This document shows, piece by piece, positions 10,797-14,876 of a stretch of DNA of 64,000 nt (positions within the stretch are counted from its first letter, which is position 1; each line of letters opens with the position of its first letter). Position numbers and translations under genes: made by a program. The notes below the pieces were generated by a model, which was given only the letters and a program-made list of their open reading frames with translations, did not search any database and was not told the origin of the DNA. Source of the DNA: Rickettsiales bacterium (GTDB taxonomy: Bacteria; Pseudomonadota; Alphaproteobacteria; Rickettsiales; SXRF01); assembly GCA_025464625.1 (NCBI GenBank), contig JAOAUZ010000003.1:124001-188000 (forward strand), written 5' to 3'.

Positions 10797-12722
10797 ATGC
10801 GAAACTCATTGGCACAACCGTCTTTATCACGCGATTTCGTATTGCTATCAGTAGCAGTCTTGTTCATTGTAATACTTATTTCTGGTTGGGTTACATATAA
10901 AACTTATAATAAGCATTCTGAACTTGTTACCATAGAGTTAGAAAAAGAGGCTGCCCGCATAGAAAGTACTATTTCTACGGAAATGGGTAATGCCAGCTAT
11001 ATGCTTGCTTCACTGGGTCGCCAGATTATTATTGACCCAGACCGTGACTATACAAAATTAGCTCAGGCGCTAAAATCATTTGATAATAAAAACCATATTT
11101 ACAGCATTTTCTCTTGGACAAATACTGACAAGAAAATGGTGATAAGTAGTAACAAAGGAGTTTTAAAAGAACCCGTTGATATTTCCGATCGTGATTTCAT
11201 ACAGCAGGCGGCTACTGATTCGTGGAAAATGCACATAGGCAGACCGATTGAAGGTCGGGTATCGGGCAGATGGGTGATCCCTGTCTCTATGGGAATAACA
11301 GATGATACTGGAAAATTCATAGGGATAATATCACTTAGTATTGATATAGAGGTTTTGACCAATCATATCCGTAATCTGGTGAAGCGTGATGGAGTTAGTT
11401 TTGCAGTGGTTACTAAGGATTTAGTAACTCTTACTGAAATATCTGATAGCAAAAATTTTATTAGTGATAACTTTCCTTCCAAGAAGCTTGTAGATGTGGA
11501 CCTTGATAAAAAGCCCAGTGGTTTAATTGCCAAAGGCAGCCTTCTTTGGGGGACTGGGATTTATGCTTACTATCGTGTTTCTGAAGATTTTCCATATATA
11601 GTAATGATGGGATATGATGCGAATTATAGTGATGAAACAGTTCGCACAATGCTTTGGTCTAGGCTATTATTAATTTTATCCGTAGCAATATTTCTTGTCG
11701 CATTCTTATGGATTGTGCGGGTGCGGGTTATCAAGCCAGTTCTTGATATTACAGAGATTGTTTCTTCCATATCGCGCGGAGAAAAATTTATGCCATTGCC
11801 TAAAAAGGGTTCGGTGGAGATTGAGGGTCTGGCGGCGCAAGTATACACAGTAAGTAAATATATTGATGAAAGTAAACGTATTGAAAGTGAATTGCGTAAC
11901 AAGATGTTTTTGTTAAAAAAATCTAAGGAAAACGCAGAAATTAATATGCGCAGCAAGTCAGAATTCTTAGCCTATATAGCTCAGGAAATACGCATGCCTG
12001 TAAATAATATAATAGGTTTTTCACAGGTTCTTAAAGATCAGATTTATGGAGCTATTGAAAATAAAAAATACAAACAATACTCAGCAGATATTTTTGCAAT
12101 AGCCAATCAGTTAATAAATAAGATTCAGGATATTATTGTTCATTCAAAGGTTGATGTCGGTTACATTGATTTGCAGGAGAAGCCTGTGGAATTTTCCAGT
12201 ATAGTTAGCACTTCTTTACGACAACTGACAGACAAGCTGCAGGCTAATGAAATTAGTATAAAGGTCGATCTTCAAGAGCATCTACCACGTTTACTGGTAG
12301 ATGAATTCAGGCTCCAGCAGATTATCATAAATTTATTGCTGGTCGTATTGGATGGAATTAAAGCGGATGGTTTCATAAGGCTTGAAGCAAAAATTATAAA
12401 CGAGCATCGAGAAAGACAGTTTCTTGCACTGACTATTGGCAATTCAAACTCTCTGCCAGTATCAAAGGACAGGCTATTTGCTCTTGCTTCAAGATTATTT
12501 GCTTCTATGTCTGGCGATACAAACGGTAATGGAAATACGAATGTACCAACTAGTGAATCGCCCGACCTTCGCTTTGAACTTGCTAAAATATTGGTATCAT
12601 TACACGGATGTGCATTGCACACTGAAGTTGTAGGAGAAGAAGTAAAGAGCTATGTCGTATTCTTTCCGCCGTCTCGATTGATTTTTGACGGGAATACAGA
12701 AGAGCAGATAAAAATGATTTAA
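10797..12722 (+). CDS. Degenerate membrane sensor kinase (pseudo-histidine kinase) with Cache-like domain
   Basis: A 641 aa protein laid out as a sensor kinase: TM1 (about 14-33), a periplasmic Cache-like domain (about 35-275; contains ISDRDFIQQA and GRWVIPVSMGI), TM2 (about 285-305), a HAMP-like linker (about 308-360), then HisKA-like (about 380-455) and HATPase-like (about 470-625) regions. The H-box reads AQEIRMPVNNIIGFS, so Gln396 stands where the phospho-acceptor His belongs. The N-box Asn is Val, the G1-box Asp-Gly motif is lost (TIGNSNSLPV), and the G2 glycines are gone (LRFELAKILVSLHG). It should neither bind ATP normally nor autophosphorylate. It aligns without gaps over the HisKA core to the intact kinase at 13368-14876, so the two look paralogous. 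A DivL-like regulatory role is inference. Confidence 0.85.
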   Translation: MRNSLAQPSLSRDFVLLSVAVLFIVILISGWVTYKTYNKHSELVTIELEKEAARIESTISTEMGNASYMLASLGRQIIIDPDRDYTKLAQALKSFDNKNHIYSIFSWTNTDKKMVISSNKGVLKEPVDISDRDFIQQAATDSWKMHIGRPIEGRVSGRWVIPVSMGITDDTGKFIGIISLSIDIEVLTNHIRNLVKRDGVSFAVVTKDLVTLTEISDSKNFISDNFPSKKLVDVDLDKKPSGLIAKGSLLWGTGIYAYYRVSEDFPYIVMMGYDANYSDETVRTMLWSRLLLILSVAIFLVAFLWIVRVRVIKPVLDITEIVSSISRGEKFMPLPKKGSVEIEGLAAQVYTVSKYIDESKRIESELRNKMFLLKKSKENAEINMRSKSEFLAYIAQEIRMPVNNIIGFSQVLKDQIYGAIENKKYKQYSADIFAIANQLINKIQDIIVHSKVDVGYIDLQEKPVEFSSIVSTSLRQLTDKLQANEISIKVDLQEHLPRLLVDEFRLQQIIINLLLVVLDGIKADGFIRLEAKIINEHRERQFLALTIGNSNSLPVSKDRLFALASRLFASMSGDTNGNGNTNVPTSESPDLRFELAKILVSLHGCALHTEVVGEEVKSYVVFFPPSRLIFDGNTEEQIKMI

Positions 12723-12769: not shown

Positions 12770-13375
12770 TTAAGCAAATTTTGCTTTGTTAAGCCAAGAT
12801 TTTACCTGATGCTTTGTTTTTTCAATTTTCATTATGTCTTCTATTCTTCTATCGAGGAATGCCCAAGTTGCTTCTTGTCCAGCGCTATTATCATCTAGCC
12901 AAACTAATAAAGTTGATGAATATACCGCAGCAAGAGTCAGGCGTTTGCTATAGAAATTAAAATCAGTGGAGGCGTCGCCAATTCCAAACCAGATATTATC
13001 GACTGTTTCATAGAGTGCGCGCAGTCCGCGATGGGCATAGAACGGTAGTGAGTGCATGGCAACAGCTCTACGCACAGCCTCTCTATGTGGCATTTGTAGC
13101 TCAAGGCGTAGGCGGACAGCGGTAGTAATGCGCGCTCGGATTTTCATACCATCAAGATGGTAATGGGACAGAGCTTCCAACATCTGCTCGTCAATCATGC
13201 GCGAATAGGCATCGACAGCATCAATCGCACCACCTGAGAATACTCGTACTACATCAGTTTTCTTATAACCAGCCTCAATCGCTGCCTTACCAAGGGTTTG
13301 GACATTCCATCCATCAAACGGTACAAGCGGCAAAGCATTATTTATTATGTCGATGCGAGCTTTGGTTTTATCCAT
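12770..13375 (-). CDS. COQ9 family protein (ubiquinone biosynthesis)
   Basis: A 201 aa all-helical protein of the COQ9 family, which binds lipid intermediates and supports ubiquinone hydroxylation. Seen: a TetR-like N-terminal half (ALPLVPFDGWNVQTLGKAAIEAGY), then IRARITTAVRLRLE and, in the C-terminal domain, VDNIWFGIGDASTDFNFYSKRLTLAAVYSSTLLVWL, which is the COQ9 hallmark. The gene overlaps the upstream kinase gene by eight bases, so both are likely made from one mRNA. It ends near the degenerate kinase gene (convergent, 47 bases apart). Confidence 0.92.
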   Translation of the reverse strand: MDKTKARIDIINNALPLVPFDGWNVQTLGKAAIEAGYKKTDVVRVFSGGAIDAVDAYSRMIDEQMLEALSHYHLDGMKIRARITTAVRLRLELQMPHREAVRRAVAMHSLPFYAHRGLRALYETVDNIWFGIGDASTDFNFYSKRLTLAAVYSSTLLVWLDDNSAGQEATWAFLDRRIEDIMKIEKTKHQVKSWLNKAKFA

Positions 13376-14876
13376 TTTCTAGTTCTAGCTGTTTACTATG
13401 CAATATTTTTCTAGAGGGGGTGATTCTTAAACATTCACGAGGAAGCGTAACAGAAACTGTAGTGCCGATGCCAATACTGCTGTTAATCTCAACTACGCCA
13501 CCATGCAATGCAATAAACTCTTTTGTAAGGGCAAGACCAATCCCAATGTGGTGGTTATTTTTAGCCATCCAGCAGTTATCTTGCTGTAGAGATTCGCGTA
13601 TATCATGGCATTTCAGTTCATTTATGCCCACGCCATTATCATGTACAGAAAGGCGAATCCCACTTTTTCCATCACGGTCAACTTCTATGGTAACTTCTCC
13701 ACCAGCTTGATTAAATTTAATGGCATTGGCAACAAGGTGACCGAGTATATGTTGTATTTTAAGGCGGTCGATAAATAGCAACATATTTCCTTTTGGAACA
13801 TACGAGATTGAAACCTTGGAAGCTTGAGCGTGATGCAGCTGTGTTTTAATAACGTGTTTGATTAAATCATCAACGTGCATTTCCTCGCGTTCAAGAACCA
13901 CTCTTCCAGCATCAATATTGGCGATTTCCAATAAATCCTCAATTTTTGCGAGAAGATCATGCCCGCTCTCTTGGATATGGCGAACATAATTAGCATATTG
14001 CGGATTGTCTATCTCACCAAATACACCCTGTTCCATGATTTGTGAGAAACCTATAACAGCATTAAGTGGTGTGCGTAATTCATGGCTCATATTGGCAAGA
14101 AATTCCGAGCGCGCACGCAAGGCAAGCTCTGCTTCTAGCCTAGCTTTTTGCAGAGTGTTTTGTATTTGCATGCTTTCGTGGATATTTTCAATGAGGCAGA
14201 CATATTGATCTGCTTGGGTATGGATTGTGAATTGATACCAATAATATTTGCTATCAGAATGTTGCATCTTCAGGCGAAGAATTTCTACGCTTTTATTTGC
14301 CTCTGCCGAAGCAGATATTGGGCGCAGAACATCACTCAGTCTTTCACGAAAATCTGGGTGGAGAAGGGTGAAGAAGTTATCTCCTAATGCTGAATTTACT
14401 TGTTGATTCGTAAGTTTTTCAAAATTGCGTGATAGATAGGTGCAATTTCCAGACGGTGTAAACAGACACAGAATTTGCGTGCCATATTCGGTTAAATATT
14501 CGTATTTTTCTTCAGCGTATTTTCCTTTGGTTTGCAGAGGTTCGGAAACAGGTGAATCCAATAATTCAGAGCATTCATTTAATATGGAGTGTAATTTTTC
14601 TATCAATAAAGAATCACCAGCTGTTTTTCTCTTATGCAACTCATTCTTATACAGCGATAAAATATGCTCTGCTTCATATGACAAAACATCTCTTATTTCT
14701 GCGGAATTTTCACTGCCAATTATGATAGCAAGCGGGGACGACTCATCATCGGCACTAGCCGAGGTGAAATCTTCAGTGGATTGGCTCAAATAAGCTGACC
14801 GAAATTGCGAAAGTAACACCCTGTTTTTGCCTCTTTTTATCGTTTTTCTTCCCGTGGAAAAGCGTATGTGAAACAA
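13368..14876 (-). CDS. PAS-domain sensor histidine kinase, PleC/DivJ-like core
   Basis: A 502 aa soluble kinase with no clear membrane segment. A PAS-like region (about 140-235, with YLTEYGTQILCLFTPSGNCTYLSRNF split over its strands) precedes HisKA with the intact H-box FLANMSHELRTPLNAVIGFS and HATPase_c with N-box HLVANAIKF, G1 HDNGVGI and G2 GIGLALTKEFIALHGG. All catalytic motifs are present. The stretch from the H-box through the second HisKA helix (GFSQIMEQGVFGEIDNPQY) resembles PleC/DivJ cell-cycle kinases. It has no adjacent response regulator. It is transcribed with COQ9 (8-base overlap) and has the degenerate paralogue just beyond. Confidence 0.9.
   Translation of the reverse strand: MFHIRFSTGRKTIKRGKNRVLLSQFRSAYLSQSTEDFTSASADDESSPLAIIIGSENSAEIRDVLSYEAEHILSLYKNELHKRKTAGDSLLIEKLHSILNECSELLDSPVSEPLQTKGKYAEEKYEYLTEYGTQILCLFTPSGNCTYLSRNFEKLTNQQVNSALGDNFFTLLHPDFRERLSDVLRPISASAEANKSVEILRLKMQHSDSKYYWYQFTIHTQADQYVCLIENIHESMQIQNTLQKARLEAELALRARSEFLANMSHELRTPLNAVIGFSQIMEQGVFGEIDNPQYANYVRHIQESGHDLLAKIEDLLEIANIDAGRVVLEREEMHVDDLIKHVIKTQLHHAQASKVSISYVPKGNMLLFIDRLKIQHILGHLVANAIKFNQAGGEVTIEVDRDGKSGIRLSVHDNGVGINELKCHDIRESLQQDNCWMAKNNHHIGIGLALTKEFIALHGGVVEINSSIGIGTTVSVTLPRECLRITPSRKILHSKQLELENG

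Follow-up and report, generated by a model that had tools for sequence, protein, structure and literature searches.

The open reading frame at positions 10797-12722 (forward strand) of a 64,000-nucleotide stretch of a Rickettsiales contig, referred to here as the window, encodes a genuine and maintained, apparently fully non-catalytic, relative of the sensor kinases. Judging from its sequence, the 641-residue protein is probably a sensor anchored in the membrane, with a histidine-kinase core that has been turned into a non-catalytic protein-binding module. Given both the loss of its motifs and its long retention across a large group of bacteria, this pseudokinase most likely signals by binding partners, a mechanism that analogy with described systems also makes likely.

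The gene starts with an ATG, has no internal stop and lies 77 bp 3' of xerD on the same strand. From the N-terminal to the C-terminal end, it encodes a first transmembrane helix (residues 14-32; 10836-10892), a periplasmic dCache_1 sensor (residues ~46-280; 10932-11636), a second transmembrane helix (residues 291-309; 11667-11723), a HAMP-like stretch followed by a helical linker (residues 310-382; 11724-11942), a DHp (HisKA) helical hairpin (residues 383-455; 11943-12161), and a degenerate HATPase_c-like domain devoid of N, G1 and G2 boxes (residues 461-641; 12177-12719), all on the forward strand. The two membrane helices are placed by hydropathy and column conservation, and the HAMP-like segment by HAMP matches in orthologues. 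The sensor, located between the two helices, is recognised by Pfam dCache_1 over residues 52-205 with 45.9 bits, narrowly above the cut-off of 45, which bears out the Cache-like periplasmic sensor proposed in the preliminary description of this DNA; the orthologues of family f1 reach 48 and 60 bits, and residues 117-271 match PDB entry 3lif. The DHp, also seen in the structure model, is recognised by Pfam HisKA (residues 386-451, 34.9 bits for a curated cut-off of 26.9). Response_reg has no Pfam match in the protein, which thus ends without C-terminal receiver domains.

The HisKA score identifies the protein as a relative of HisKA-type histidine kinases, but the H, N, G1 and G2 boxes of an active kinase are all missing. 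Gln396 (codon 11982-11984, forward strand) aligns to the phospho-acceptor His (AQEIRMP versus SHELRTP), as had been claimed earlier. The loss of the N-box Asn, G1 and G2, part of the same claim, is confirmed by the alignment, with NLLLVVLDG, IGNSNSLP and SPDLRFELAK in their respective places, and by the lack of any Pfam HATPase_c match at E-values up to 1. Deprived of its ATP pocket and of a phospho-acceptor, the protein is predicted to perform neither autophosphorylation nor phosphate relay. The HExxT phosphatase motif is absent as well, QEIRM being found instead. It is very unlikely that the protein acts as a transmitter phosphatase needing neither His nor ATP: 86% of the f1 proteins retain Glu at +1 and 43% retain Thr at +4, but HExxT, which is required in RetS (PMC5992135), is broken in 4/4 members of the window genus, all of which have Gln for the His and either Met or Leu at +4, and the reading is disfavoured for this genus.

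Homologues were sought first in 55 relatives and then, in an extended search, in 344 genomes of the order. Full-length orthologues occur throughout the window genus (58-71% identity) and in family f1, where 15 of 16 genomes carry one; that of G010 is a fragment without the core, and the genome lacking the gene is 74% complete. The preliminary description had proposed to look for the Gln in homologues from related genomes: it is present in 13 of the 14 f1 orthologues with a readable core, the other having Thr (G004), so this is no one-strain loss. The ATP pocket is retained in none of these 14. The extended search added degenerate relatives in families f5, f13, f17, f21, f26 and f29. The f17 and f21 proteins combine a retained His with a decayed pocket. 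In f26 the site is occupied by Ser; in f5 and f29 it varies, with Gln, Glu, Ser and His among its residues. Pfam HATPase_c scores descend from 96 and 91 bits in the intact kinases of f9 and f4 to 46 in f21, 27 in f29 and 25 in the f1 genome G011, down to no match in the window protein. The His-retaining orthologues at L053, L052 and L058 (families f21 and f17) are candidates for phosphatase or HPt-like activity.

A tree built from 47 whole proteins gathers the degenerate ones, from seven family-level groups, in a single clade (support 100/97). Since decayed columns could pull degenerate rows together, a tree was also made from the sensor half; it gives the same split with weaker support (93/57) and is consistent with a single degenerate clade, while not proving it. 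The state of the ATP pocket requires one change, on one branch, as compared to 15 for the His-site residue; the single change assumes that the intact rows are orthologous, f4 and f9 being the nearest and informative ones, while some of those from f27, f18, f19, f7 and f14 may be kinases that resemble them in architecture without being orthologous. Mapped in this way, the decay of the pocket falls on one branch; the His persists in some lineages and has given way to other residues repeatedly in others.

Such losses raise the question of decay of the gene itself. Synonymous sites are saturated between the pseudokinase and its counterpart in G003, the genome of the nearest relative, which makes the dN/dS ratio unusable, and the proportions pN and pS were used. 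Gene-wide, pN is 0.18 for a saturated pS of 0.84; the active neighbour kinase, compared to its own G003 counterpart, gives 0.20 and 0.79. Identity to G003 is 86% in the Cache domain, 77% in the linker and 78% in the DHp, versus 42% in the ATPase-like part. The active neighbour displays the reverse: 56% in the part preceding the DHp (the sensor), 89% in the DHp and 81% in the CA domain. These comparisons indicate that constraint in the pseudokinase has shifted away from catalysis, towards sensing and the DHp; the ATPase-like terminal domain is the one part where it may be reduced. A gene decaying under relaxed selection is therefore hard to credit: its ATPase-like part does evolve fast (pN 0.35), but the frames of its orthologues stay open at full length over a saturated synonymous distance, the Gln is kept, and the gene-wide pN is no higher than that of the active neighbour. 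Decay of the whole gene was rejected, the sensor and DHp not drifting at the synonymous rate; the earlier opinion that a frame open over 641 codons is no simple decaying gene agrees with the full-length orthologues and the constraint retained, and the relaxed-selection test argues the same way.

Within the core, mean column conservation in f1 is 0.78-0.80 in the lower DHp and hairpin, 0.40 at G1 and 0.34 in the lid. The best conserved part is the hairpin motif QVLKDQIYGAIENKKYKQYSADI (residues 410-432; 12024-12092, forward strand), with the f1 consensus QVMKDQLYGPIENRKYRQYASDI. This motif, conserved within f1, is variable in f5 and f29, which makes a single docking partner for the whole clade doubtful. 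The columns that are near-invariant over the whole clade belong almost all to the sensor, the membrane-flanking segments and the linker, and not to the DHp, so the hairpin partner need not match across families. Among them, R12-D13-F14 at the start of the first membrane helix reaches 95-100% conservation over the degenerate proteins, and E341, E358, E365 and K369 of the linker are invariant.

An AlphaFold2 model, built from only 4 sequences, has a pLDDT of 70 and a pTM of 0.58. The strands and helices of the ATPase-like domain are fairly confident and come in kinase-like order, in line with a possible GHKL-like fold; the lid region is not confident. A full-length model (pLDDT 46) is too poor for use. 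The top PDB matches of the former are histidine kinases, including the RetS kinase region, the RetS-GacS DHp co-complex and DivL, with a whole-length TM of ~0.4; they support at most the fold class and no specific relative.

In the preferred reading, the periplasmic dCache domain would sense a cue, and the second membrane helix, the HAMP-like stretch and the conserved helical linker would carry the signal to the dimeric DHp hairpin. The hairpin would then, most likely, dock in a signal-dependent manner to some component of the PdhS/DivJ/PleC network. Candidates for this partner are response regulators (DivK or PleD, for instance), as for DivL, and active kinases contacted through their DHp, as for RetS and RocA; these are two sub-modes of the best explanation rather than competitors of it. 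Counting against this reading, the remodelled C-terminal domain may have some activity of its own.

The network itself is suggested by NCBIfam, whose best match is PdhS (79 bits), with DivJ lower (48 bits); neither comes anywhere near its equivalog cut-off. This ranking fits an origin from a PdhS/DivJ/PleC-type kinase, and the PleC-like core of the preliminary description holds in that sense. ChpT is encoded in the window genome, and divK-like and pleD-like genes lie there side by side (L084:1489-3267, G000 contig C6); that they are DivK and PleD is our assumption from domain order and gene order, as in Caulobacter. A separate DivL-like protein is encoded at L065:6643-8664 (G000 contig C1). 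It has a Tyr in place of the His, and its ATP domain looks intact; the DivL structure 4q20 is among its best PDB relatives (1.4e-36).

DivL binds DivK~P without catalysis (PMC4211667), and by analogy a DivL-like mode of action is possible for the pseudokinase. Its DHp would bind phosphorylated DivK (or PleD) and pass the information to another kinase, giving cell-cycle control a periplasmic input. We hold this first sub-mode tentatively. It draws on the proximity of the core to the PdhS and DivJ models, on the presence of divK-pleD and ChpT, and on the good conservation in f1 of the hairpin, the half of the DHp to which response regulators dock. It has to contend with the Tyr-type protein already present in the genome, and with the fact that DivL, apart from its Tyr, keeps the H, N, G1, F and G2 boxes (PMC4211667), none of which is left here; the positions by which DivL contacts DivK are also kept in part only (in f1, Arg at +3 in 71% and Asn at +7 in 79%, +12 being variable). 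Orthology to DivL was rejected on account of the Gln, the missing motifs and the separate Tyr-type protein.

The second sub-mode is equally tentative: the DHp would enter mixed complexes with an active kinase and raise or lower its activity. A degenerate ATPase domain is common to RetS, RocA and the pseudokinase, the f17 and f21 relatives, with an H box and a decayed pocket, resemble a RetS-like intermediate state, and RetS structures are among the top matches of the model, although at a TM of ~0.4 these reflect the general fold. Against it, no kinase gene is conservedly paired with the pseudokinase. The neighbouring kinase, encoded by the minus strand at 13368-14876, is intact, as described earlier (HATPase_c 70.9 bits, HisKA 63.6 bits in Pfam), but it is not the nearest paralogue: slightly higher scores are reached by two further kinases of the genome. 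Its identity to the pseudokinase is ~22% over the DHp and ATPase-like region, and the alignment, formerly thought gapless, needs several gaps in the ATPase-like part. The order xerD-pseudokinase-COQ9-kinase is common to the window genome and G003 only; the proposed pseudokinase/kinase pair does not extend further, and pairing with the adjacent kinase was rejected as a general rule. At 12770-14876 (minus strand), this PAS-HisKA-HATPase kinase gene and the COQ9-family gene share 8 bases, the stop end of the former running into the start of the latter. The two likely form one operon, and G003 has the arrangement as well.

A more recurrent neighbour, new relative to the preliminary description, is an unannotated family of hydrophobic proteins of ~330-510 residues with several moderately hydrophobic segments. 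In many relatives, 1-4 copies lie upstream of the pseudokinase gene on the same strand: this is the case in f13, f29, two f5 loci and nine f1 loci, none of the latter in the window genus or g2. The copies are often in tandem and often just downstream of groEL, between it and the pseudokinase (L044:8624-12348 and L045:8474-10506, minus strand; L051:3594-6977 and L057:3515-4519, plus strand; L136 and others). The family has no match in Pfam or PDB, and its NCBIfam match is at chance level. For a partner of the pseudokinase, this linkage offers the strongest lead. The sensor could work with the linked proteins, the kinase core serving for dimerisation only, a reading that we consider rather doubtful. 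The direct upstream position of the copies, the groEL-linked loci, and the near-invariant residues of the sensor, membrane-flanking segments and linker speak for it; proximity, however, does not amount to interaction, and the linkage is absent in f17, f21 and f26. The window genus has lost it too, the window genome keeping two members away from the pseudokinase, on contig C6 (L157:7032-8132; L158:6704-7723). Its wider version, an order-wide pseudokinase family in which the pocket was lost first, the His was then replaced many times, and the sensor works with the groEL-linked family as a two-part device without phosphotransfer, appears unlikely.

ATP/ADP translocase is absent in the window family and present in up to five copies in the other families of the order. 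The free-living Mitibacteraceae and Athabascaceae, which possess flagella and chemotaxis, likewise have no translocase (PMC9352585). By this analogy, the Rickettsiales bearing the pseudokinase are probably free-living. The protein would thus add a probable regulator to lineages near the origin of host dependence in Rickettsiales.

To our knowledge, pseudo-histidine-kinases of bacteria are known from a few single cases. The degenerate clade offers what look like living steps of the loss, from an intact kinase through a decayed pocket with a His to the loss of everything, and as the sensor and hairpin are still selected, the role of a kinase fold after catalysis becomes testable by comparison. 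The catalytic PdhS, DivJ and PleC kinases are the closest by NCBIfam, in the HisKA region, and the pseudokinase falls far short of their equivalog scores. RetS of Pseudomonas aeruginosa, which modulates GacS, also associates a membrane sensor and a HisKA domain with a degenerate HATPase without G boxes, and does not autophosphorylate (PMC5992135), but it has the His, HExxT and two receiver domains, all missing here. RocA of group A Streptococcus is comparable by its features, being a membrane pseudokinase with an ATPase domain without kinase residues that works through another kinase, CovS (PMC7028121); it differs by a six-helix membrane sensor and a dispensable His that is retained. An evolved ChrS variant provides a further precedent (PMC9491836). 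Caulobacter DivL is, like the present protein, an alphaproteobacterial pseudokinase with a replaced His in a genome encoding DivK and PleD, but it has a Tyr, preserved ATP-domain motifs and PAS domains (PMC4211667) in place of the Gln, wrecked pocket and dCache sensor found here. By these features, the pseudokinase goes further than DivL, RetS and RocA, since its phospho-acceptor has disappeared together with the entire pocket.
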